Below, piece after piece: positions 17,523 through 30,426 of a stretch of 36,074 nucleotides of DNA. A program made the position numbers and the translations under genes. Origin of the DNA: Clostridia bacterium (GTDB taxonomy: Bacteria; Bacillota; Clostridia; Oscillospirales; CAG-272); contig JAFQWY010000146.1 in NCBI GenBank assembly GCA_017407225.1, positions 1 to 36,074 on the forward strand, read 5' to 3'. Within the stretch, counting starts at the first letter, position 1, and the number at the start of each line of letters is the position of its first letter. The notes beneath the pieces are model-generated. The model was not told where the DNA came from, made no database searches, and saw only the letters and a list, made by a program, of their open reading frames with translations.

Positions 17523-19541
17523 ATGGCATTGAAACTGTTTCAGAAAAAAGATAAAACCATGACGGCAGAGCCAACCGACCTTGACTCCGTCATGAAAAAA
17601 TATGACCAGGAGTCCAATGTGCGGATCTGGCAGGGTGTGCCGAAGATCGTTGTGACCTGCATTCTGGCGGCGTTCTCCCTGTTCTGCATCTATGTGACCC
17701 TGTTTACCACATGGCTGGAAGAAATCCGCCTGACCTCCTTCGTTGCGCTCATCGTATTCATGGGATTCCTGGTATTCCCGGCGAAGAAGGGCGTTCAGCG
17801 GGTCAACTATATGCCGTGGTATGACATCGTTATGGCCATCATCGGCCCGGCGGCATTCCTGTACTTTACCGCCAATGCGCTTAGCATCATCCAGCAGGGC
17901 GCAAAGTTCCAGACTTATCAGATTCTTATCGGCGTGGTGGGCATTCTCGCTCTGGCGGAAGTGTGCCGCCGGGCGGTCGGTCTGCCCATCCTCATCGTGG
18001 CGGCGTGCTTCATTATCTATGCACTGACCGTGGGCTTGGCAAACCCCACCTTCTCCGGAAGACTGAACTACGTGGTGCGCTCCCTGTTCTATTCCAAGGA
18101 AGGGATCCTCTCCACTCCCATCAACACCTGTTCCAAGTACATTGTCGTGTTCATCATCTTCGGTGCATTCCTGGAAAGAACCGGTATTGCGGACTTCTTC
18201 ATTCAGGCGGCTAACGCTGTTGTGGGCGGCTTCTCCGGCGGTCCCGCGAAGGTAGCCGTAGTTGCCAGCGCACTGGAAGGCATGGTATCCGGTTCCTCAG
18301 TTGCCAATACCGTGGGAAGCGGCTCCATCACCATCCCGCTCATGAAGAAAACCGGCTACAAGGGTGAATTTGCAGGTGCGGCCGAAGCTGCTGCATCCAC
18401 CGGCGGTCAGATCATGCCTCCCATCATGGGTGCCGCGGCATTCCTGATGGCGGACAATATCGGTATTTCTTACAGCAATATCATCAAGAGCGCGATTCTT
18501 CCCGCTCTCCTGTACTTCGCGGGTATCTTCATCGCGGTGCATCTGGAAGCGAAGAAGCTGGGTTTGCGCGGCATCGACAAGAGCGAGCTTCCCAAGTGGA
18601 AATTCCTCATCCGTCAGATTTATCTGCTTATTCCTCTGGGCGTTCTCATCGTTCTGGTTACAACCAACTCCAAGACCATCCAGACTGCGGCTGCCATTGC
18701 GATTCTTGCGGCAATCGGCGTAAGCCTGCTCAGCTTTGTGTTCCGCACCATCGGCAGCAGAAAGTTCGACCGGAATACCCTGAAGGATCTGGGCAAGACT
18801 CTCCTCAGTTTCTTTGAAGCACTGGGTGCCGGCGGTCAGGGTACCATCGCCGTTGCTGCAGCCTGCGGTATTGCGGGCATCATCGGCGGTACCATCACCA
18901 TGACCGGTCTTGCAAACCTGATGATCAACGGTATCGTAACCGTAGCCAACGGTCAGGTTATCATCGCCCTGTTCTTCACCATGATCTGCTGCATCATTCT
19001 GGGTATGGGCGTTCCCACCACCGCAAACTACTGCATCATGGCGGCAACCTGTGCTCCCATTCTGGTTCGTATGGGCGTTCCCATGATCGCGGCTCACTTC
19101 TTCGTATTCTACTTCGGCATTGTTGCCGATCTGACTCCTCCCGTTGCGCTTGCGGCATATGCAGGTGCGGCAATTGCACAGGCGAATCCCATGAAGACCG
19201 CACTGCAGGCAACCAAGCTGGCCATTGCGGCGTTCGTCGTTCCTTATGTGTTCGCACTGAACCCTGTCATGCTGTTTGAAGGCAATCCCGGCGTGTTCCA
19301 GGTGATCCTGATTGCGGCAACCTCCCTGATCGGTATCTTCGGGGTATCGGCGGGACTGGAAGGCTGGATTCTCACAACTATGAATCCGCTCCAGAGAATT
19401 ATCTCTGCGGCAGCAGGCATTCTTCTCATCGACCCCAGTCCTCTGACCGACGTGATCGGCGTTGCCATCATCGCTCTGGTTATCGTATGGCAGATCATAC
19501 AGAAGAAAGCCGGTTCCGCCCCGGATCTGAAAGCGGCGTAA
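17523..19541 (+). CDS. TRAP transporter fused permease subunit (TAXI system)
   Basis: A 672-aa polytopic protein joining the small DctQ-like and large DctM-like TRAP subunits, as is usual for TAXI systems. The small subunit occupies roughly residues 40-170, where helices flank FPAKKGVQRVNYMPWYD, and the DctM part follows. The latter contains GAFLERTGIADFFI, the GGPAKVAVVASALEGMVSGSS motif (about 239-259), GGQIMPPIMGAAAFLMAD (about 298-315), and a matching second-half GMGVPTTANYCIMAA. It imports a carboxylate using an ion gradient, supplied by the lipoprotein encoded just upstream. The gene starts at ATG 17523 behind TGGAGAAAAC. A terminator hairpin lies 12 bases after the stop. Confidence 0.93.
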   Translation: MALKLFQKKDKTMTAEPTDLDSVMKKYDQESNVRIWQGVPKIVVTCILAAFSLFCIYVTLFTTWLEEIRLTSFVALIVFMGFLVFPAKKGVQRVNYMPWYDIVMAIIGPAAFLYFTANALSIIQQGAKFQTYQILIGVVGILALAEVCRRAVGLPILIVAACFIIYALTVGLANPTFSGRLNYVVRSLFYSKEGILSTPINTCSKYIVVFIIFGAFLERTGIADFFIQAANAVVGGFSGGPAKVAVVASALEGMVSGSSVANTVGSGSITIPLMKKTGYKGEFAGAAEAAASTGGQIMPPIMGAAAFLMADNIGISYSNIIKSAILPALLYFAGIFIAVHLEAKKLGLRGIDKSELPKWKFLIRQIYLLIPLGVLIVLVTTNSKTIQTAAAIAILAAIGVSLLSFVFRTIGSRKFDRNTLKDLGKTLLSFFEALGAGGQGTIAVAAACGIAGIIGGTITMTGLANLMINGIVTVANGQVIIALFFTMICCIILGMGVPTTANYCIMAATCAPILVRMGVPMIAAHFFVFYFGIVADLTPPVALAAYAGAAIAQANPMKTALQATKLAIAAFVVPYVFALNPVMLFEGNPGVFQVILIAATSLIGIFGVSAGLEGWILTTMNPLQRIISAAAGILLIDPSPLTDVIGVAIIALVIVWQIIQKKAGSAPDLKAA

Positions 19542-19553
19542 ATCAAACGAATG

Positions 19554-19578
19554 AGCGGCGGAGAAATCTGCCGCTTTT
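19554..19578 (+). terminator. Intrinsic terminator after the TRAP permease
   Basis: AGCGGC (19554-19559) pairs with GCCGCT (19570-19575), then TTTTCCTTT. The ribosome-binding site of the next gene begins only about four bases later. Confidence 0.7.
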
Positions 19579-19592
19579 CCTTTGGAGGGACT

Positions 19593-20492
19593 ATGTATAG
19601 AGAAGGAAAATGGGCGAAGGAAATTATAGCTCTGCAGGAAGAAGACGGGAAGTGGGGATGCTTTCACTCCCTGGCGCAGTCCTATGGCGCCACCATGACC
19701 ACGGAACAGGCACTGCGGAGATTAGAACGGCTTGGGTTTACCATGGAGGACGAATGCATCCGGCGTGCCGTGAAATATATGGCGGACTGTCTTGCGGGCG
19801 AAAAAGAGATCCCCGATTACCGTGAGAAATTCCACGACTGGGATGTTTTCACCAGCCTGATGCTGTCCACTTGGATCCGGCGGTTTACCATGGAGAACGG
19901 TGACGCCAACCGTGTGGCTGAAAACTGGTCGGCTGTGGTGTCTGCGGGATTTGAGGACTGTGAGGACGTGTCCGAGGAGAATCAGGGACTTCACGGGATT
20001 TACAGGCGTGCCGGATTCAATCAGAAGCGGTACGAAGAGGCTTACCGGGATATCATCAGACCCACCCACGGCACACTGCTGGGATTCGGGAATTTCTATC
20101 ATGTATCCCTGCTTGCCGGATGTCTCGCGGATGGAACCGAGGAGGCGTATTTCGGCAACATTCTCGCCGGCGGGATCTACTATATTTACGAGCATCCGCT
20201 GACCGAACTGCCGGAATCCTTTGAGAGCAGAGCGGCGAGCCGGTATATGGCGGCTATGGAACTGCTTGCGTATTATCACTGTGCCGGGCGGAAACTGAAG
20301 TTTTTCACCGACTGGCTTCAGGAAAACCGCAGGGAGGACGGAACATGGGACATGGGAAAGAATTCGGCTGACAAGGTATACTTCCCGCTGTCCGATTCGT
20401 GGCGGAAGGCGGAAACAAGAATTGCCGACTGCACATGGCGCATCGAGGGCTTTCTCGCACGGCTTGAGCGTCAGAATATACAAAACGCATGA
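19593..20492 (+). CDS. Uncharacterised protein, probable alpha/alpha-toroid (prenyltransferase/cyclase-like) fold
   Basis: A 299-aa cytosolic protein that I cannot name. Two motifs resemble the QW-type repeats of squalene-hopene cyclases and prenyltransferase-like toroids: LQEEDGKWG (14-22) near the start and NRREDGTWDMG (245-255) near the end, in a helix-rich chain. The catalytic DxDD of cyclases is absent, so I do not assign cyclase activity. ATG 19593 is preferred because TTTGGAGGG stands seven bases before it; an in-frame ATG at 19551 falls in the terminator stem. It follows the TRAP permease by 51 bases, filled by the terminator and its own ribosome-binding site, so expression may depend on readthrough. 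No promoter can be placed in that gap. Confidence 0.75.
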   Translation: MYREGKWAKEIIALQEEDGKWGCFHSLAQSYGATMTTEQALRRLERLGFTMEDECIRRAVKYMADCLAGEKEIPDYREKFHDWDVFTSLMLSTWIRRFTMENGDANRVAENWSAVVSAGFEDCEDVSEENQGLHGIYRRAGFNQKRYEEAYRDIIRPTHGTLLGFGNFYHVSLLAGCLADGTEEAYFGNILAGGIYYIYEHPLTELPESFESRAASRYMAAMELLAYYHCAGRKLKFFTDWLQENRREDGTWDMGKNSADKVYFPLSDSWRKAETRIADCTWRIEGFLARLERQNIQNA

Positions 20493-20520
20493 TTAAACTT
20501 GCATAATCTGCAATTTGCTG

Positions 20521-20549
20521 TTGACAATTATTCAAAAACGGTGTATAAT
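20521..20549 (+). promoter_or_regulatory. Promoter of the aconitase/isocitrate dehydrogenase operon
   Basis: TTGACA (20521-20526) and TATAAT (20544-20549), both perfect, 17-base spacer. Confidence 0.88.
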
Positions 20550-20611
20550 AATCAGCATACAGCCTGAATATTGAATCATCAGACGACAGAAATTTCATTT
20601 TGGAGGCATCC

Positions 20612-22543
20612 ATGGCACTCACACTCGCAGAAAAAATACTGAAAAACCACATCGTGGACGGCGAACTGGTGAAGGGTACCGAAATCGGTCTGAAAATCGA
20701 CCAGACCCTGACCCAGGACGCGACCGGCACGATGGCTTATATAGAATTCGAAGCAATGGGTATCGATCAGGTCAGAACCGAGAGAAGCGTGGCGTACATC
20801 GACCACAACACCCTCCAGTCCGGCTTTGAAAATGCCGATGACCACAGATTCATCGCGTCCTGTGCCAAGAAGCACGGCATTTACTACTCCCGTCCCGGCA
20901 ACGGCATCTGCCATCAGGTACATCTGGAACGGTTCGGCGTACCCGGCAAGACCCTCATCGGCTCCGACAGCCATACTCCCACCGGCGGCGGTATCGGTAT
21001 GTTGGCAATCGGTGCGGGCGGTCTGGACGTTGCGGTTGCCATGGGCGGCGGCGCATACTATATCACCTGCCCGAAGATCGTCAATGTGGAACTGACCGGA
21101 AAGCTTCAGCCCTGGGTAGCCGCAAAGGACATGATTCTCACTCTCCTGAAGATCATGTCTGTCAAGGGCGGCGTGGGCAAGATCATTGAATACACTGGCG
21201 AGGGCGTAAAGACTCTGTCCGTTCCCGAACGTGCAACTATCACCAACATGGGCGCTGAGCTGGGGGCGACCACCTCCATTTTCCCCTCCGATGAGAATAC
21301 CCTCGCTTTCCTCAAGGCGCAGGGCAGAGAAGAAGTTTACACTCCTCTGGCGGCTGACGAAGGCGCGGTTTACGATGAATATATCAGGATCAATCTCTCC
21401 GAGCTGGAACCCATGGCGGCTTGTCCCCATTCTCCCGACAACGTAAAGTCCATCAAGGAAATCGGTCAGATGAAGATCGACCAGGTCTGCATCGGTTCCT
21501 GCACCAACTCCTCCCTGATGGATATGCTGAAGGTTGCGTATATCCTCGACGGCAAGACCGTGCATCCCGACGTTTCTCTGGCGGTTTCTCCCGGATCCAA
21601 GCAGGTTCTGGGCATGATGGCGGAAAACGGTGCGCTCTCCAAGATCATTGCGGCAGGCGCAAGAGTACTGGAATCCGCATGCGGTCCCTGTATCGGTATG
21701 GGTCAGTCCCCCAACTCCAAGGGTATCTCCCTCCGTACTTTCAACCGGAACTTTGAAGGCAGAAGCGGTACCAAGGACGGTCAGATCTATCTGGTATCCC
21801 CCGAAGTTGCGGCGGCTTCCGCTGTAGCAGGTTATCTTTGTGATCCCCGTGAGCTTGGCAATATGCCCGAATTCGTGATGCCCGAAACGTTCACCGTCAA
21901 CGACAATATGATCACCCTTCCCGCACCCGCCGACTGTGCAAAGGATGTGGAAATTCTCCGCGGTCCCAATATCGGCGAGTATCCCAGGACCGAGCCTCTC
22001 ACCGATACCATCGCGGCTGACTGTTCCCTCAAGGTCGGCGACAACATCACCACCGACCACATCATGCCCGCCGGTGCCAAGATTCTGCCCCTCCGCTCCA
22101 ACATTCCTGCTATTTCCAAACACTGCTTCGCTGTATGCGATGAAAAGTTCCCGGAACGCGCGCTGAGCCTGGGCAGGAGCATTATCGTTGGCGGTACCAA
22201 CTACGGACAGGGCTCCTCCCGTGAGCACGCGGCTCTGGCACCCCTGTATCTGGGTGTAAAGGCAGTTATCGTCAAGTCCTTCGCAAGAATCCACCGCCAG
22301 AATCTCATCAACGCCGGCATCCTGCCCCTTGAATTTGTAAACGAAGCAGACTACGAAACCATCGAACAGGGCGACAGCCTGGTGATCGAAGGTCTGCTGG
22401 AAAATATCGGGGACGGCGAAATCACCGTAAAGAACACCACCCGCGGCACCTCCTTCGCTGTCAAGTGCGAACTGAGTGCAAGAATGAAGGACATCATCCT
22501 CTGCGGCGGTCTGCTGGAATACACCAGAAACAACCTGAAATAA
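20612..22543 (+). CDS. acn: Aconitate hydratase (short, Aquifex-type)
   Basis: A 643-aa aconitase that interconverts citrate and isocitrate in the cytosol with a [4Fe-4S] cluster. Cluster cysteines are C297 in IGSCTNSS, and C357 and C360 in [22 protein letters not shown] (117-131) and [19 protein letters not shown] near the C-terminal domain are catalytic-loop signatures. It is shorter than the roughly 750-900 aa of mitochondrial, AcnA and AcnB enzymes, and matches the shorter putative aconitase group first described from Aquifex and found in Clostridia. ATG 20612 follows TTGGAGG; the in-frame TTG at 20600 overlaps that site and is unlikely. The next gene, 19 bases on, is isocitrate dehydrogenase, supporting the citrate role over homoaconitate or isopropylmalate chemistry. 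Confidence 0.93.
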
Positions 22544-22562
22544 TCAATCCGGAGATATAACC

Positions 22563-23762
22563 ATGGCTAAGATTAAAATGACAACTCCCCTCGTTGAGAT
22601 GGACGGGGACGAAATGACCAGAGTGATCTGGAAATGGATCAAGGAAATTCTCATTGAACCCTATGTGGATCTGAAGACCGAATACTATGATCTGGGTCTG
22701 GAATACCGCAATGCCACTGGCGACCAGGTGACCATTGATTCTGCTGAGGCTACCAAGAAGTACGGTGTTGCGGTCAAGTGCGCCACCATCACTCCCAACG
22801 CGGCCCGCATGACTGAGTACAACCTGACCGAAATGTGGAAGTCCCCCAACGGAACCATCCGCGCCATTCTGGACGGCACCGTGTTCCGCGCTCCCATCAT
22901 CGTCAAGGGCATCACTCCCTACATCCCCACCTGGACCAAGCCCATCACCATCGCACGTCACGCATACGGCGATATCTACAAAAACACCGAAATGGCTGTT
23001 CCCGCGGGATGCAAGGCTGAACTGGTCTGCACCGATGAAAACGGCAACGAAACCCGCAAGGTGATCCACGAATTCACAAAGTCCGCCGGTATCGTGCAGG
23101 GCGTGCACAATCTGGATTCCTCCATCGCATCCTTCGCACGTTCCTCCTTCAACTATGCCCTCGATCAGAAGCAGGACGTATGGTTTGCGGCAAAGGACAC
23201 CATTTCCAAGACCTACGACCACCACTTCAAGGATGTATGGCAGGAAATCTACGACAACGAATACAAGGAAAAGTTCGAAGAAGCCGGCATCACCTACTTC
23301 TACACTCTCATCGACGATGCTGTTGCCCGTGTGATCCGCAGCGAAGGCGGCTACATCTGGGCGTGCAAGAACTACGACGGCGACGTGATGAGTGATATGC
23401 TTGCCACCGCATTCGGCAGCCTTGCCATGATGACCTCCGTTCTGGTATCTCCCGACGGTGTATACGAATACGAAGCGGCTCACGGTACCGTTCAGCGCCA
23501 CTACTATAAGCATCTGAAGGGCGAGGAAACCTCCACCAACAGCGTTGCCACCATTTTTGCGTGGACCGGCGCCCTCAGAAAGCGCGGGGAACTGGACAAC
23601 CTGCCCGATCTGTGCGATTTCGCCGACAGACTTGAAAACGCCTGCGTGAAGACCATCGAAGACGGCATCATGACCGGCGACCTGTACACCCTGTCCAAGC
23701 TGGAAAACAAGAAGAAGGTCAACACCCTTGACTTCCTCCGCGCCATCGCCGACAGAATCTGA
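22563..23762 (+). CDS. icd: NADP-dependent isocitrate dehydrogenase (homodimeric, eukaryote-like)
   Basis: A 399-aa isocitrate dehydrogenase that oxidatively decarboxylates isocitrate to 2-oxoglutarate, making NADPH. It belongs to the type II dimeric group found in eukaryotes and some bacteria. Evidence: [13 protein letters not shown] (11-23), [17 protein letters not shown] substrate-binding segment, [27 protein letters not shown] with the catalytic metal-binding aspartates, and the NADP-site [12 protein letters not shown]. Length is normal for this type. It is the second gene of the aconitase operon, with its own GGAG site, and ends in a strong terminator. Together the pair provides 2-oxoglutarate for glutamate synthesis; citrate synthase must be elsewhere. 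Confidence 0.95.
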
Positions 23763-24515: not shown

Positions 24516-27500
24516 TTATTCTCTCTCCACAAGAATGGTCTTGATCTCAAAAGGTCTGAAGTTCAGCTTGACCTTGCCCTTTTCCATGGGCAGCTCTTCG
24601 ATGGTTTCTTCCAGCATATTGGTCAGTCTGACGGATTTTGCACCGGTCAGGGTGAGAGTGCAGCCCGTGGTGCTTCTTTCCGCTTCGTACAGACGGAGAA
24701 CGTATGCACTCGGTACATCTTCGGCGGTCTTGACGGATTCGCAGATGATGTTGGATGCGCTCAGGCTGAACAGCTTTGGAACATTGTACTTCACACCGTC
24801 GCCGGTAAGGGCATCGTAGTTGAATTCGTATGCCGGACGGACAACGGTTTCTGCGGAGAAGGGACCGACGTGGGGCAGGAGGGCGTACTTCATGTAGTGA
24901 ACGCCGAAATCAGTAACGGGGTCGGGACGGCAGCCGCCTCTCTGGAGGGTCAGACGGAGATCGCTGCCTTCTGCGGAGATGCCGTACTTGCAGTCGTTGA
25001 GAACTGCCACGCCGTAGTTGGTTTCGGACAGATCGGACCACTTGTGGTTGCAGATTTCAAACTTCGCGCATTCCAGGGAAGTGTTTCTGGTGGTGGGACG
25101 ATCCACATGACCGAACTGGATTTCGTTCTTCACGAATGCGGAGCGGATGTTCACATCGAATCCTGCCTTCAGGAGGGAGTGACGATCCTGCCAGTCCAGC
25201 TTCAGTTCAAAGTCGATCTGGCGGCTGCCCGCATGGAATACGGTGTCAACGGTGGCGGTCGATTTGCGTCCTACCTTGTAAACGGAGCGGATGCGGTACT
25301 GTACAGCACCGTCGGAAACCACTTCGCGGGACTGCAGAGCGGTGACGGGCTTCAGCTTTCTGAAAATGTCGTCTTCCACTTCCCAGTTGTCGTATGCGGT
25401 GGGCATATCTTCCCCGAACCAGAGAGTGCCGAGAGGAGCGCCGTTCAGGTTGGCAACTTCGCGGTCCTTCTGCTTGTCGATGAGGGAGGAAATGTAGCCG
25501 TTTTCATTGAAGGTGACGGTGTAGTAGGGAGTTTCCAGCTTGTTTCCGTCGGCGGTGAAGCGGCTTGCCTGTTCGGTGACGGGAGTCTTTCTGTAGTTGA
25601 CAACACCCATGGCGGGAATTTCCGCACGGAATACGGTCACAGTTTCGTTGTCCTGGTTCTGATAAGTCTGGGTTGCCTTGTTTTCCAGACCGAACGCGCC
25701 GGGCATTTCCACAGCGGACTGACGCTCGAAGGAGAGGGGATTGAGCACGGAAACATTGCCGTCGGCTTCTTCCTGCATCTTTGCGAGGGAGGAAGCGGTG
25801 GTAAGACCGGCATCGGCGATCATCTTCCGCATTTCGGGAACAGCCACTTCGTAAACCTTCGGGATGGAGGTGCCGGGGAGAATATCGTGGAACTGGTTCT
25901 TCAGAAGGATCTTGTACAGCTCGTCCCGCTGTTCGGTATTCGCATCGTTTGCCAGAACGCCTGCCAGTTCCATGTTGTGCAGGGCGATTTCACCCTTGCG
26001 GTTGTTCTGCTTTACATCGTGCATCTGGGTGAGGGTACCGCGGTGGAATTCCAGATACAGCTCACCGTCATACAGGGGCAGACTGTCACGGCGTTCTTCC
26101 AGATTCTGCATATATGCACTTGCGGTGGTGGGTTCGATTTCGGGCATGCCGGGCAGTTCCTTCACGCGCTTGAGGTATTCCAGCATACCGTAGGTGGGAC
26201 CGCCGCCGCCGTCACCGAAGCCGTATGCGGACAGACGCATATCGTTGGAGCGCTTGTCGCGGATTTCGGTCACGGTGCCCATAAGGGTGCGTACATCGGG
26301 AATCAGATGCATCCGGTTCAGATGGGTGATGACCTCGGAACCGTCGATGCCGCGCCATACAAAGGTGTCGGCCGGGAACTGGTTCAGGTCGTTCCAGGAC
26401 ATTTTTGTGGTGTAGAAATACTTTACGCCGGAGCCCTGCATGATCTGGGGAATGGCTGCGTTGTAGCCGAAGGTATCGGGGAGCCAGAAGGAATCGGAGC
26501 GGTAGCCCAGATACTTTTCGGTGAACCGCTGACCGTAGAGGAACTGACGGACCATGGATTCGCCGCCGGTCACGTTGCAGTCGCATTCCACCCAAACGCC
26601 GCCGTTGGGTTCGTATCTGCCTTCGGCAACCTTTTCGCGGATGCCTTCAAAGATGTCGGGGTAGTATTCCCGCATCCAGTCCAGATGGAGGGCGGAGGAC
26701 TGCATGAAGGTGTAGTCCGGGTACATTTCCATCAGATTCAGGGTCTGGGAGTAGGTACGGGCGCACTTGCGGATGGTTTCGGATACGGGCCACAACCATG
26801 CGGTATCCATGTGGGAGTGTCCGATGACGCCGATCTTGCCGCGGGAACGGTCACTGCCGGTCTTTTCCAGAGCGGGAGCAATGCATTCTCTCACCTTTTC
26901 GCAGGAATAGCGGATTTCTTCCTCGTCAGCGGAGGCGGGATCCTGCAGCAGGTAGGGGAAGGCGTTCATGAGGCATTCGTGAGCCTTCATGGCAGTGAAG
27001 TTTTCGCCGGGCAGACGTGCAATCTGCAGAACGGTGGACAGGTCGAACACGAAGTCCCGCATCAGGGCATCAACCACACAGATCCGGATGCCGTTGTAGC
27101 GGTGAGTGAACCCGGGGTTCCAGCCGTCGTCGTTGTAGTGGGAATAGGGAGTGCATTCCAGACAGGTGTGGCCGGCATAGCACTCGAAGCCAAGCTGAAT
27201 CGTTTCGCCCGCTTTTGCAGAGGGGGACACGAACATGGCACTGTGCTCGCCGCCGATGAAACGGTTTTTGGAGTTGATGATGCCTGCGGGCTTGCCGTTG
27301 CGGAAGCAGAGGATTTCTACCGCATTGGCATCGGGGATGGCGCAGAGAATCTGTCCGTCCAGCTCGGCGGGAACGGTGTATTCCGTTACCAGCCAGAGAT
27401 TGGAGTATTCCTTGCCCCAGTCTGTTCCGGCGGAGATTTCCGTGAGCAGGGAAGCATCCGGAACCTTTCTCAGATGCTCGGGAGTCTCCATGCCGTATAC

Positions 27501-27602
27501 GGCTGCCGCTCTGTCAACGGTCTTGAAGATCCGGGCTGCATAGAGGTCCAGCACATTGTCGAACTTCCGGTAGGTACGTTCGATATAATTGTGATTGTTC
27601 AT
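24516..27602 (-). CDS. Alpha-mannosidase, glycoside hydrolase family 38
   Basis: A 1028-aa GH38 alpha-mannosidase, a zinc retaining enzyme that removes alpha-mannose from oligosaccharides. The N-terminal region (1-250) is a beta-rich domain, then the catalytic barrel begins with GHSHMDTAWLWP (261-272): H262, H264 and D266 are the zinc-site residues. The nucleophile is D376 in WLPDTFGY. A helical segment and the C-terminal beta-sandwich domains follow, giving a normal length. No signal peptide: the enzyme is cytosolic and would act on imported oligomannose or N-glycan fragments. ATG 27602 is chosen because GAAAGGAA lies upstream and a promoter sits at 27640-27668; an in-frame upstream start would span that promoter. 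The PHP gene follows at once. Confidence 0.94.
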   Translation of the reverse strand: MNNHNYIERTYRKFDNVLDLYAARIFKTVDRAAAVYGMETPEHLRKVPDASLLTEISAGTDWGKEYSNLWLVTEYTVPAELDGQILCAIPDANAVEILCFRNGKPAGIINSKNRFIGGEHSAMFVSPSAKAGETIQLGFECYAGHTCLECTPYSHYNDDGWNPGFTHRYNGIRICVVDALMRDFVFDLSTVLQIARLPGENFTAMKAHECLMNAFPYLLQDPASADEEEIRYSCEKVRECIAPALEKTGSDRSRGKIGVIGHSHMDTAWLWPVSETIRKCARTYSQTLNLMEMYPDYTFMQSSALHLDWMREYYPDIFEGIREKVAEGRYEPNGGVWVECDCNVTGGESMVRQFLYGQRFTEKYLGYRSDSFWLPDTFGYNAAIPQIMQGSGVKYFYTTKMSWNDLNQFPADTFVWRGIDGSEVITHLNRMHLIPDVRTLMGTVTEIRDKRSNDMRLSAYGFGDGGGGPTYGMLEYLKRVKELPGMPEIEPTTASAYMQNLEERRDSLPLYDGELYLEFHRGTLTQMHDVKQNNRKGEIALHNMELAGVLANDANTEQRDELYKILLKNQFHDILPGTSIPKVYEVAVPEMRKMIADAGLTTASSLAKMQEEADGNVSVLNPLSFERQSAVEMPGAFGLENKATQTYQNQDNETVTVFRAEIPAMGVVNYRKTPVTEQASRFTADGNKLETPYYTVTFNENGYISSLIDKQKDREVANLNGAPLGTLWFGEDMPTAYDNWEVEDDIFRKLKPVTALQSREVVSDGAVQYRIRSVYKVGRKSTATVDTVFHAGSRQIDFELKLDWQDRHSLLKAGFDVNIRSAFVKNEIQFGHVDRPTTRNTSLECAKFEICNHKWSDLSETNYGVAVLNDCKYGISAEGSDLRLTLQRGGCRPDPVTDFGVHYMKYALLPHVGPFSAETVVRPAYEFNYDALTGDGVKYNVPKLFSLSASNIICESVKTAEDVPSAYVLRLYEAERSTTGCTLTLTGAKSVRLTNMLEETIEELPMEKGKVKLNFRPFEIKTILVERE

Positions 27603-27639
27603 ACGGATTCCTTTCGTTGAAGTAAAATTCAGCACGTAC

Positions 27640-27668
27640 AGTATAGCATAAATATACAAAGAAATCAA
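27640..27668 (-). promoter_or_regulatory. Promoter of the GH38/PHP operon
   Basis: On the minus strand TTGATT (27663-27668) and TATACT (27640-27645) with a 17-base spacer. It is divergent from the T-box promoter, about 84 bases away. Confidence 0.75.
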
Positions 27669-27751
27669 GGTGATTTGCCCAATTCCGAGGACGAGGGAAA
27701 TCGAGCTCCGTAAAAAACAATAAAAAAACCCGGAAAAATTTGAAAAACCGG

Positions 27752-27780
27752 TTGACAAATCCGACGTCCGGTGCTATAAT
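27752..27780 (+). promoter_or_regulatory. Promoter of the T-box leader transcript
   Basis: TTGACA (27752-27757) and TATAAT (27775-27780), both perfect, 17-base spacer, with an extended TGC. Transcription should begin near 27787. Confidence 0.88.
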
Positions 27781-27786
27781 ACAACA

Positions 27787-28074
27787 CATCAACCGAATAA
27801 ATACACAAAAGACTATGACGAAGACTGATTTCGGTCATCAACCATCACAGAGAGTCCGCAGGGGTGGAATGCGGATATGGCGGGCATGAAATCCTATCAC
27901 TTCCGAGTCGGGAAAGGAAAGGCGGAAACGCTGAGTAATGATTCCCCGTACGTGCTGCGTGACTGCACAGGGCTTGTCTGAGCCTGCTGAGGGGCATACA
28001 TTGTATGCAATTTGAGTGGTACCGCGAATTTGAATTTCAAGTTCGTCTCAAAGAGAATTGAGACGGACTTTTTT
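27787..28074 (+). ncRNA. T-box leader (transcription-attenuating tRNA sensor)
   Basis: The conserved Stem I apex is present: AGAGAG (27849-27854), stem TCCGCA/TGCGGA (27855-27860 and 27870-27875) with loop GGGGTGGAA, supported below by CCAT/ATGG. A Stem III-like hairpin is GCATAC/GTATGC (27994-28008). The T-box element is GAGTGGTACCGCG (28014-28026). Antiterminator: TTTGAG (28011-28016) with CTCAAA (28047-28052), and GCGAA (28024-28028) with TTCGT (28042-28046), leaving the bulge TGGTACC unpaired. TGGT would pair with ACCA, so the tRNA should have A73. The overlapping terminator is described separately. The specifier is tentatively ATC (Ile) at 27896-27898, followed by A. The Stem I base is not resolved by eye, so the amino acid is uncertain. 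Confidence 0.93.
28039..28074 (+). terminator. T-box-controlled intrinsic terminator
   Basis: AAGTTCGTCTCAA (28039-28051) pairs with TTGAGACGGACTT (28058-28070), 13 pairs with one G-T wobble and a six-base loop, followed by a T run to 28074. Its 5' arm (TTCGTCTCAA) is the same sequence used in the antiterminator, so the two structures exclude each other. Confidence 0.92.
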
Positions 28075-28125
28075 ATTGTTTCGGTAGTCCGTCTGCCCCA
28101 AGATTATTATACGGAGGAACCCCAA

Positions 28126-30426
28126 ATGGAAAACATCATCGAAAAAGTGGCGGCCAGAGTCCGTGAGACCCGTCTTACCTGTGAGATCTCCGAAGAAGAA
28201 ATGGCCCAGTGTACCGGTCTGACAGTAGAGCAGTACAGAGACTACGAAGCCGGCAAGAACGACTTTACCTTTACTTTCATTTATAAATGTGCGGCGAGAT
28301 TCGGCGTGGATACCACCGACCTTCTCAAGGGTGAATCTCCCACACTGCATGAATACACCGTAACCCGCGCCGGCGAAGGGCTTCCCATTGCCCGCAGAGG
28401 CGGCTTTGAATACTACAATCTTGCTCCCATGTTCAAGAACAAGATCGTGGAACCTTTCTACACCGTTGCCAAGTACAATCCCGAGGAACGTGCCCAGCAG
28501 ATGAAGATGAGCCAGCACGAAGGTCAGGAATATGACTACATCATCTCCGGTAAGCTTCTGGTTTCCGTGGACGGTCATACCGAAATTCTCGGCCCCGGCG
28601 ACTCCATCTACTACGACTCCTCCAAGCCCCACGCCAATATCGCTTACGAGGGCGACTGCGAATTCCTCGCCATCATCATTTCCAACGGCGAAACCGCATA
28701 CGATACCAAGAGTGTTATGGCGGAAGACCATGAAGTGAAGCCCGTTGATCTGCAGGATGTTCTCTCTCCTCTGCCCGAAAATCCCGTTGCGGCAAACTTC
28801 ATTGACTGCACCGAAGAAAACGGCAAGCTGACCAGGATTCAGTTCAAGAACGAAGAACAGTACAACTTCGCATACGATACCGTTGACGCCATTGCTGCGA
28901 AGACTCCCGATAAGGTGGCTCTGCTCCATCTGGATGTCAACAAGAATGAGCGCCGCTTCACCTACAAGGATATCTCTCTGCTGTCCAATCAGGCGGCGAA
29001 CTACTTCGATTTCCTGGGAATCGGTCATGGCGACACCGTTATGCTGGTTCTCAAGCGTCACTGGCAGTTCTGGATTGCATCCATCGCACTGCACAAGCTG
29101 GGTGCTGTGGCAATTCCCGCAACCCATATGCTGGTGGAACACGACTTCGACTACCGTTACAAGGCTGCAAATGTAAAAGCAATCGTATGTACCGCTGACG
29201 GCGACACCGCAATGCACGCAGAAAACGCCGAAAAGAACGTACCCCAGGATATCATCAAGATCATCGCAAACGGTACCCGTCCCGGCTGGCACTCCTTCGA
29301 CCGCGAATTCAAGATGTTCACCAACGAATTCGAACGCCGTGAAAAGGCCTGCGGCAGTGAGACCATGTATATGCTCTTCACCTCCGGCACCACCGGCTAT
29401 CCCAAGATCGCGGCTCACAGCTACAAGTACGCGCTGGGTCACTACATCACCGCAAGATACTGGCACAACGCCGATCCCGAAGGCATCCACTTCACCATCT
29501 CCGACACCGGCTGGGGCAAGGCTCTCTGGGGCAAGCTCTACGGTCAGTGGCTGTGTGAAAGCTGCGTATTTGCCTACGACTTTGAAAAGTTCGACGCAGC
29601 CGACATCCTGCCTCTGTTCAAGAAGTACAATATCACCACCTTCTGTGCACCGCCCACCATGTTCCGGTTCTTCATCAAGGCGGGCGTCGAAAACTACGAT
29701 CTGTCCTCCCTCAAGCACTGCACCATCGCAGGCGAAGCACTGAACCCGGAAGTATTCCACAAGTTCAAGGAATACACCGGCCTGTCCCTCATGGAAGGCT
29801 TCGGTCAGACGGAAACCACGCTGGCCATCGCAAACTTTGTGGGTGACACTCCCAAGCCCGGCTCCATGGGCAGACCTTCTCCCATGTACGACGTTGACAT
29901 CATCACTCCCGAAGGCAAGTCCTGTGAAGTGGGTGAAACCGGTGAAATCGTCATCAGCACCAAGGACGGCGTTCCCGCCGGTCTGTTCAAGGGCTACTAC
30001 ATGAACGAAGAAGCTACAAAGGAAGCATGGCACGACGGCTACTACCACACCGGCGACACTGCATGGCGTGATGAAGACGGATACTTCTGGTATGTCGGCC
30101 GTGTGGATGACGTTATCAAGTCTTCCGGCTACCGCATCGGGCCCTTTGAAATCGAATCCGTTATCATGGAACTGCCCTACGTTCTGGAATGTGCCATCAC
30201 CGGCGTTCCGGATCCCATCAGAGGCCAGGTTGTCAAGGCGACCATCGTTCTGGTGAAGGGAACTGAAGGCACCGACGAGCTGAAGAAGCAGATCCAGACC
30301 TACGTCAAGGAACACACCGCACCCTACAAGTACCCCAGAATCGTTGACTTCGTGGATGAACTTCCCAAGACCATCAGCGGCAAGATCCGCAGAGTGGAAC
30401 TGAGAGCGAAGGACAGCGCGAAATAA
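28126..30426 (+). CDS. XRE-HTH / cupin / acyl-CoA synthetase fusion protein
   Basis: A 766-aa three-part protein. Residues about 8-68 are an XRE-like helix-turn-helix, residues about 95-190 a cupin (EGQEYDYIISGKLLV, then LGPGDSIYYDSSKPH), and residues about 240-766 an AMP-forming acyl-CoA synthetase resembling medium-chain acyl-CoA ligases (ACSM). The synthetase has P-loop TSGTTGYPK (419-427), GFGQTET (558-564), YHTGD (640-644), GRVDDVIKSSGYRIG (658-672) and the adenylation Lys K753 in KTISGKIRR. It would activate a carboxylic acid with ATP and CoA. ATG 28126 follows GGAGG; earlier in-frame codons lie within the terminator. A T-box controls it. I infer that the substrate is a precursor acid of the amino acid sensed; the acid itself is unknown. 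The HTH-cupin part could sense a ligand or bind DNA. Confidence 0.9.
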   Translation: MENIIEKVAARVRETRLTCEISEEEMAQCTGLTVEQYRDYEAGKNDFTFTFIYKCAARFGVDTTDLLKGESPTLHEYTVTRAGEGLPIARRGGFEYYNLAPMFKNKIVEPFYTVAKYNPEERAQQMKMSQHEGQEYDYIISGKLLVSVDGHTEILGPGDSIYYDSSKPHANIAYEGDCEFLAIIISNGETAYDTKSVMAEDHEVKPVDLQDVLSPLPENPVAANFIDCTEENGKLTRIQFKNEEQYNFAYDTVDAIAAKTPDKVALLHLDVNKNERRFTYKDISLLSNQAANYFDFLGIGHGDTVMLVLKRHWQFWIASIALHKLGAVAIPATHMLVEHDFDYRYKAANVKAIVCTADGDTAMHAENAEKNVPQDIIKIIANGTRPGWHSFDREFKMFTNEFERREKACGSETMYMLFTSGTTGYPKIAAHSYKYALGHYITARYWHNADPEGIHFTISDTGWGKALWGKLYGQWLCESCVFAYDFEKFDAADILPLFKKYNITTFCAPPTMFRFFIKAGVENYDLSSLKHCTIAGEALNPEVFHKFKEYTGLSLMEGFGQTETTLAIANFVGDTPKPGSMGRPSPMYDVDIITPEGKSCEVGETGEIVISTKDGVPAGLFKGYYMNEEATKEAWHDGYYHTGDTAWRDEDGYFWYVGRVDDVIKSSGYRIGPFEIESVIMELPYVLECAITGVPDPIRGQVVKATIVLVKGTEGTDELKKQIQTYVKEHTAPYKYPRIVDFVDELPKTISGKIRRVELRAKDSAK

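Follow-up and report, generated by a model that had tools for sequence, protein, structure and literature searches.

An isoleucine-type T-box leader upstream of a predicted 2-methylbutyryl-CoA synthetase gene in gut and rumen Clostridia

Why should a T-box leader, whose usual targets are tRNA synthetase, ilv or transporter genes, stand before a gene for an acid-activating acyl-CoA synthetase? The question is raised by positions 27752-30426 of contig JAFQWY010000146.1 from a Clostridia bacterium, analyzed here over its full 36,074 nucleotides (the window), where a promoter-like pair, a leader, a terminator, a ribosome-binding site and one gene are read from the sequence as an apparent single transcription unit. 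Our answer, which we hold to be very probable, is that uncharged tRNA-Ile turns the gene on, so that 2-methylbutyrate is activated and can be reductively carboxylated on the way to isoleucine. The leader, its specifier codon, their conservation, the specifiers of paralogues, the co-variation with a pocket residue, the gene neighborhood and the gene co-occurrence are all sequence-based, and from them we infer the substrate, the direction of the VOR-type oxidoreductase and the regulation by tRNA in vivo.

In the proposed mechanism, uncharged tRNA-Ile would pair with both the ATC codon of Stem I and the TGGTACC bulge, thereby stabilizing the antiterminator and allowing transcription into the gene, whereas with charged tRNA-Ile the terminator would remain. 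The enzyme would form 2-methylbutyryl-CoA from 2-methylbutyrate, a branched acid found in gut and rumen. This ester would then undergo reductive carboxylation to 3-methyl-2-oxopentanoate by an enzyme encoded elsewhere in the genome, a 2-oxoacid:ferredoxin oxidoreductase of the VOR type, and a branched-chain aminotransferase would complete the route to isoleucine. In relatives, paralogues with valine specifiers would serve isobutyrate and the few with likely leucine specifiers probably isovalerate; vor and IlvE genes often share an operon with these paralogues.

The T-box leader and the enzyme behind it

The T-box leader before the synthetase gene is real and beyond chance. The original prediction described a Stem I, a TGGTACC bulge, an antiterminator and a competing 13-bp terminator, and we located each of these parts at 27806-28075 (Table 1). 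The Rfam check that it proposed came out divided: RF00230 matches 27806-28053 over model positions 1-219 of 219 at E 1.5e-15, but the score of 71.5 bits, identical in a genome-wide search, lies below the curated gathering score of 93. Because of this shortfall, a default scan of the window at the curated cut-off listed nothing, and a lax search recovered the T-box. Sub-cut-off scores are usual in this genome, since it yields 15 T-box matches at E ≤ 10 of which just 3 pass, and the leaders of genes read as ileS and serS reach only 66.6 and 60.2 bits (the names ileS, valS, thrS, serS, trpB and cysE for other T-box genes come from reading translations). In the control search, matches at E ≤ 10 appeared in 10 of 14 control genomes and passed the cut-off in 2; weak matches in those genomes could therefore be fortuitous.

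Conservation and covariation carry the identification further. A TGGTACC or TGGTAAC element lies upstream in 28 of the 30 best homologous family loci, which bears out the expectation that relatives would share the leader, and the bulge is conserved across the family alignment, where four rows read TGGTAAC. For the antiterminator, we compared the window leader with 29 of 50 family leaders, 30 in all, and found 93.1% of cells paired, with a covariation score of 0.267 versus 0.150 in shuffled and at most 0.113 in slid alignments, and 39 cells with a two-sided change versus 19.4 in shuffles. Two of the five covariation measures were not clearly above shuffles (pairs with two-sided change, 4 versus 4.0; further pair types, 15 versus 12.9), and the minimum-energy fold of the whole leader was no better than shuffles (z -1.09). 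The terminator hairpin appears in the computed fold, and similar hairpins are seen in the leaders of relatives. By sequence and covariation, the UGGN bulge lies within an antiterminator that is mutually exclusive with the terminator.

Table 1. Coordinates of the T-box synthetase locus in the window
Feature	Position	Strand	Basis
Promoter-like pair, TTGACA 27752-27757 and TATAAT 27775-27780, spacer 17 bp	27752..27780	+	read from sequence; predicted
T-box leader RNA	27806..28053	+	Rfam RF00230, 71.5 bits, E 1.5e-15
Stem I, including kink-turn-like loop, specifier loop and an apical region containing AGAGAG	27811..27909	+	sequence, model and family alignments; helices by eye
Stem I helices, GACT 27811-27814/AGTC 27906-27909 and GAAG 27820-27823/CTTC 27900-27903		+	sequence
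Specifier ATC (Ile), with A27899 between codon and CTTC helix	27896..27898	+	conservation and register
T-box bulge TGGTACC, predicted to bind the NCCA end of the tRNA; U compatible with A73	28017..28023	+	sequence, RF00230 alignment
Antiterminator, TTTGAG 28011-28016/CTCAAA 28047-28052, plus GCGAA.../...TTCGT flanking bulge	28011..28052	+	covariation, 30 leaders
Intrinsic terminator, 13-bp hairpin 28039-28051/28058-28070, one G-U, T tract; overlaps antiterminator	28039..28075	+	sequence and fold
GGAGG ribosome-binding site upstream of ATG 28126		+	sequence
HTH_3 - Cupin_2 - AMP-binding - AMP-binding_C acyl-CoA synthetase, 766 aa; predicted 2-methylbutyryl-CoA synthetase	28126..30426	+	Pfam
Codon 464 (Gly) within GWGKALWGK, residue tracking specifier	29515..29517	+	

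The AMP-forming acyl-CoA synthetase predicted downstream was likewise found, as the Pfam domains AMP-binding and AMP-binding_C. The best match in the PDB is 3etc (652 bits versus 365 for the next structure), with which residues 243-765 align along chain positions 52-579, so that domains and best match place the protein with the MacsMa type. 3ETC is the Methanosarcina acetivorans synthetase MacsMa, for which the source describes 2-methylbutyrate as preferred substrate and, as pocket features, Trp259 and a Gly that replaces Trp416 of Acs (PMC10455477). In an alignment anchored on the motif 431-YHTGD-435 named in that source, these two residues map to W468 and G560 of the window protein. The residues W446, K465, W468, C507 and G560 are invariant in the 10-row alignment A1. 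Three of them (K465, W446 and C507) align with Lys256, Trp237 and Cys298 of MacsMa, which we take to be additional pocket residues. The two enzymes differ in that MacsMa is archaeal and in that the HTH-cupin part of the window protein has no counterpart in the alignment; this part, at 28126-28700, makes the protein a regulator-enzyme fusion. The ATC specifier and the preference of the nearest solved enzyme for 2-methylbutyrate both support the suggested pairing of isoleucine with that acid, and we infer that the window enzyme activates it.

The top NCBIfam model, MbcS (NF047394), suggests a different role, namely that the synthetase feeds 2-methylbutyryl-CoA and isobutyryl-CoA primers to branched-chain fatty acids, a need that isoleucine shortage could also raise by starving the usual primers. 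MbcS of Staphylococcus aureus is likewise AMP-forming and, as its source describes, supplies lipid synthesis by activating 2-methylbutyrate and isobutyrate (PMC10026030). Yet the match of 439.7 bits misses the MbcS cut-off of 850, so that the protein does not qualify as its equivalog, and amino-acid-specific switches on separate paralogues suit amino-acid supply better. Together with the gene context described below, these points make the lipid-primer role improbable in our view.

Specifier codon and pocket residue 464

The position of the ATC specifier, named tentatively in the original prediction, is confirmed, and the codon is kept in all 27 alignable Stem I sequences among the 30 best homologues. 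In leaders of the same genome, the codon lies one base 5' of the lower helix (ileS, ATC-A-CTCC; thrS, ACC-G-CTCC; valS, GTA-G-TCCC), and the window leader, which reads ATC-A-CTTC, shares this register. The register is not absolute, because the serS leader needs one additional base between codon and helix; the TBDB paper describes the same priority rule for the specifier position, with the -1 and +1 frames also considered (PMC7778990). Among Ile-class leaders, the flanking bases on either side of the codon vary while ATC is constant. The U of UGGN would also suit A73, presumably the discriminator of tRNA-Ile. By codon, register and conservation, the window leader is most likely an isoleucine-specific T-box.

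To place this codon in context, we read the leaders of 94 homologous family genes, 87 of which have a T-box motif upstream. The 85 readable leaders specify ATC (57), GTA (23), GTC (2) or CTG (3), where the counts follow a rule that leans to expected codons, since a regular expression listed candidates and the first reading ATC, GTA, GTC or CTG was taken. There was a single candidate in 51 leaders and more candidates elsewhere in the leader in 33, and L073_1 was assigned by eye; of the nine unlabelled genes, seven lack the motif, one is cut at a contig end and one was unparsed. Shifting the GTA leaders by one base gives stop codons (TAG or TAA), and GTA and GTC are synonymous for valine. The CTG leaders, from three close relatives, carry an additional ATC three bases 5', so leucine is likely for them and not sure. 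A second set, drawn as the best 80 of 567 relatives from named records and partly overlapping the first, gave 79 genes with more than 300 bases upstream. With specifier calling that likewise favored branched-chain codons, 64 of these 79 have a T-box motif: 58 ATC (56 by the first script, two by eye and a second script), 5 GTA and 1 unreadable. The named records with the synthetase are mostly Clostridia bins from gut and rumen and include Neglectibacter timonensis, where the leader (L121) reads ATC.

Two kinds of altered leader were seen along the way. The unreadable one (L166 3550-4001, a Ruminococcus flavefaciens bin) has apparently lost the specifier part of Stem I, by deletion or assembly fault. 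In L033 and L035, the region immediately upstream of the gene has no T-box motif but retains a hairpin resembling a terminator (GTCTCGAG...CTCGAGAC) as well as a stretch of CACAATTTGAGGAA, as if the T-box had been lost or altered.

The specifier classes also differ within the enzyme. When the catalytic parts of 56 Ile-class and 24 Val-class enzymes were compared, positions 323, 464 and 467 separated the classes at ≥80% on each side (L043_1 and L085_1 were left out here and restored for the residue-464 counts). Specifically, residue 464 is Gly in 57 of 57 ATC genes of the family set and Ala in 25 of 25 GTA/GTC genes and 3 of 3 CTG genes, with 4 Gly and 5 Ala among the nine unlabelled genes. The second set has Gly464 in 59 of 59 ATC genes and Ala464 in 5 of 5 GTA genes; Gly464 is also found there in 3 of 3 genes with unreadable specifier and 3 of 3 cut genes. 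The 3etc enzyme has Gly at the equivalent position. Residue 464 lies within GW[G/A]K, beside K465; in an acetyl-CoA synthetase, the aligned residue is the Val of GWVTG, which we take to be an acetate-pocket residue. The bigger side chain of Ala464 in the Val class would suit the smaller acid, isobutyrate, as opposed to 2-methylbutyrate. Across the aligned paralogues, then, specifier and predicted acid-pocket residue co-vary.

Specifier labels cluster on the protein tree, with 11 changes versus 34 in shuffles. One gene, L085, has a GTC specifier and Ala464 and is placed among Ile genes; a test of whether it had switched independently gave no clear answer (AU p 0.101), so a single origin of the Val class is possible. 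The same data bear on whether some other short acid is the true substrate and the isoleucine link merely reflects a leader captured from an ileS-like gene, an idea that gains from a description of Firmicutes leaders as duplicating and switching specificity (PMC3766115). Capture fits poorly with paralogue specifiers that agree, in all 85 readable genes, with the residue at a single pocket-motif position, and with the vor and IlvE genes that follow in operons, and we regard it as extremely improbable.

Gene neighborhood and the canonical ilv pathway

If the synthetase serves isoleucine supply by reductive carboxylation, a VOR-type enzyme should accompany it. VorB (NF005507) was found in 111 of 196 family genomes, specifically in 104 of the 110 with a strong synthetase match versus 7 of the 86 without; in the VorB and IlvC tables, 19 genomes with weaker synthetase matches (E ~1e-151 to 1e-222) count as synthetase-less, and the Fisher p-values for co-occurrence overstate independence because the genomes share kinship. 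At least 46 contigs bear both genes and, among the matches listed, vorB follows the synthetase on its strand, no more than 6.2 kb downstream, in 45 of 46, the exception being G100. The oxidoreductase that the original prediction called for in the window genome itself was found as a VorB-type gene cut by a contig end and as IorA/IorB on C229, with IorA above its cut-off; a pyruvate-type enzyme on C22 was identified by reading. The genus-mates G041, G099, G142 and G185 match nearly the full VorB model.

The most complete cluster, in G057 (L197), runs in the order Ile-T-box synthetase, Val-T-box synthetase, branched-chain aminotransferase (472 bits against a cut-off of 307), a protein of 214 aa that has a P-loop-like GHYGSGKT but matched no family, a small protein resembling ferredoxin, VorB (567 bits against a cut-off of 399) and TPP-type and gamma subunits (matches under cut-offs). 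From the Val synthetase onward, genes are separated by fewer than 30 bases or overlap by 4, a tight spacing that suggests one transcript. IlvE-like genes are present in 6 of 8 fetched synthetase-vor clusters, in two of the six after the vor genes, where the family model was run on one of the six. In addition, two clusters (L201 7101-7904; L207) carry a carbon-nitrogen hydrolase, perhaps an omega-amidase partner of the transaminase. In the examined clusters, the synthetase thus neighbors VOR and aminotransferase genes and not the fatty-acid genes that a supply of lipid primers would lead one to expect.

Such clusters could also be read as catabolic, since VOR-type enzymes are, as we understand it, at home in amino-acid fermentation. 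The T-box would turn the genes on under amino-acid shortage, contrary to a catabolic role; AMP-forming synthetases, which we take to consume ATP, would drive towards the CoA ester; and the Ile and Val specifiers agree with residue 464 in every readable gene. Catabolism is therefore very improbable as the function of these genes.

An anabolic role is in line with the distribution of the canonical pathway. IlvC is found in 29 of the 110 genomes with the synthetase versus 60 of the 86 without (44 of 129 versus 45 of 67 when the 19 weaker-match genomes are counted as synthetase-bearing), and IlvD in 36 of 110 versus 60 of 86. This anticorrelation is not predicted by a lipid role. In G041 and G099, which are 93 and 94% complete, Pfam searches matched neither IlvC nor IlvD, and both genomes carry Ile and Val synthetases (L018/L058 and L019/L057) and VorB. 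The gap in ilv biosynthesis that the original prediction looked for thus appears as a depletion among carriers in the wider family, but not in the window genome, where both IlvC and IlvD have Pfam matches.

Several observations weigh against isoleucine supply by this route, the ilv matches just named being one of them; with these genes present, the route there would be salvage alongside synthesis. The tandem Leu and Ile T-boxes on C100 of the window genome have a counterpart that heads an ilv operon in genus-mate G142. The window synthetase gene stands alone and does not adjoin vor, the VorB reading at the end of C204 scores 384.2 bits against a cut-off of 399 with the last 107 model positions missing, and none of the genome's 15 T-box matches falls on that contig. 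The vor clusters of G041 and G099 have neither T-box motif nor synthetase in the fetched stretches. The motif is missing upstream of 7 of the 94 family homologues and of 15 of the 79 homologues in the second set, all 15 of which still have Gly464. A pattern search of the draft genome for tRNA-Ile(GAU) gave a sole match with a CAT anticodon and no GAU. Finally, the leader scores below the curated Rfam cut-off, and VOR enzymes can also operate oxidatively. We set these points against the leader, specifier, pocket residue and operon evidence and retain activation of 2-methylbutyrate for isoleucine synthesis as the preferred explanation.

Other T-box genes, known systems and significance

The window genome holds further genes of this kind. 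L013 (C201) is a paralogue of the window synthetase at 53% identity, cut by a contig end, whose leader reads GTA-G-CTCC (Val). L010 (C197; L094 1794-4328) has a T-box leading a fusion gene, whose product joins a xylose-isomerase-like TIM barrel to an AMP-binding enzyme; a first reading of its specifier as Phe (TTC) was dropped because the common register gives CTC-A-CCCC (Leu). L002 (C234; L095 4290-5549) has one before a further AMP-binding protein, also cut by a contig end, with an ambiguous specifier (TAC, tentatively Tyr, if the helix has 5 bp; ACA if it has 4). With the window gene, this makes at least four acyl-CoA synthetase-like genes behind T-boxes in one genome. The tandem T-boxes on C100, considered as another acid-salvage leader, were dropped as such because their 88% match in G142 precedes the ilv operon.

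Other observations stand apart from these. A third synthetase homologue, L047 (C192:119636-120562), has 69% identity over residues 454-762, with its leader cut off by a contig end. A T-box reading TAC-A-CTTC (Tyr) precedes a gene read as an FAD-dependent protein (L007, C9), and in G133 (L199) one reading CTC precedes a LeuA-like gene (a sub-cut-off match) and a TIM-barrel protein. Within the window, 17523-23762 carries consecutive genes for a TRAP transporter fused permease, a protein of 313 aa that no NCBIfam model matched, aconitase and NADP isocitrate dehydrogenase, possibly for tri- or dicarboxylate uptake towards 2-oxoglutarate. On the minus strand at 24516-27758, divergent from the T-box gene, lies a frame weakly matching mannosylglycerate hydrolase (94.9 of 1138 bits).

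Each part of the proposed system is already known on its own: the T-box, the branched acyl-CoA synthetase and the reductive carboxylation. With the ileS, valS and ilv leaders of RF00230, the window leader shares the Stem I specifier, the TGGN bulge, the antiterminator-terminator choice and the Ile register of the same-genome ileS leader, and it differs in its target and its lower score. The G142 (L206) operon with tandem Leu and Ile T-boxes is also a T-box-run branched-chain supply, but of the canonical pathway (IlvC and IlvD by Pfam, the remaining genes by reading). A Leu T-box upstream of leuA is described in Geobacter, where the target is likewise a branched-chain gene but again a canonical one, the source naming no acid activation in the part available (PMC2700814).

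Reductive carboxylation of branched acids to isoleucine, valine and leucine by rumen bacteria was reportedly described by Allison, Robinson and co-workers in 1966-1971, work that both PMC7356843 and PMC2812497 cite. The chemistry predicted here and the habitat are the same, and genes, an operon and a control are proposed in addition. An account of rumen fermentation names 2-methylbutyrate, isobutyrate and isovalerate as precursors of isoleucine, valine and leucine, respectively (PMC7356843), and for isoleucine this route is also inferred in the genome paper on Methanobrevibacter ruminantium (PMC2812497). Among the papers surveyed, we recognized none connecting a T-box to a branched acyl-CoA synthetase or to VOR, although other T-box surveys or supplements may list such a case; Wels 2008 (PMC2494555) and Sun 2013 (PMC3766115) make no mention in their main text of acyl-CoA, CoA ligase or synthetase, or ferredoxin, and the text of the TBDB paper (PMC7778990) does not mention acyl-CoA, CoA or ferredoxin. 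As far as we have seen, the new element is the combination, with its paralogue-specific codon set and matching pocket residue.

Altogether, these results suggest that T-boxes sensing Ile, Val or, in a few cases, probably Leu precede matching predicted synthetases, an arrangement that most likely lets gut and rumen Clostridia rebuild branched-chain amino acids from branched acids. We also lean towards a broader, modular reading, in which the T-box codon of each HTH-cupin-synthetase paralogue would name the amino acid that its acid yields, codon and residue 464 would change together, and tRNA charging would run whole synthetase/aminotransferase/VOR operons that can replace ilvC/ilvD. Were this true, the specifier would serve as an annotation of the enzyme's substrate, and the fused HTH-cupin part would be a second control layer. 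Branched short-chain acids have been tied to branched-chain amino-acid synthesis in the rumen since the 1960s, and we found no description of the genes that activate them. If right, our analysis would supply that gene set, its regulatory logic and a substrate prediction from one codon; it would widen T-box targets to carboxylic-acid activation and help tell which gut bacteria rely on isoacids from their neighbors or from feed.

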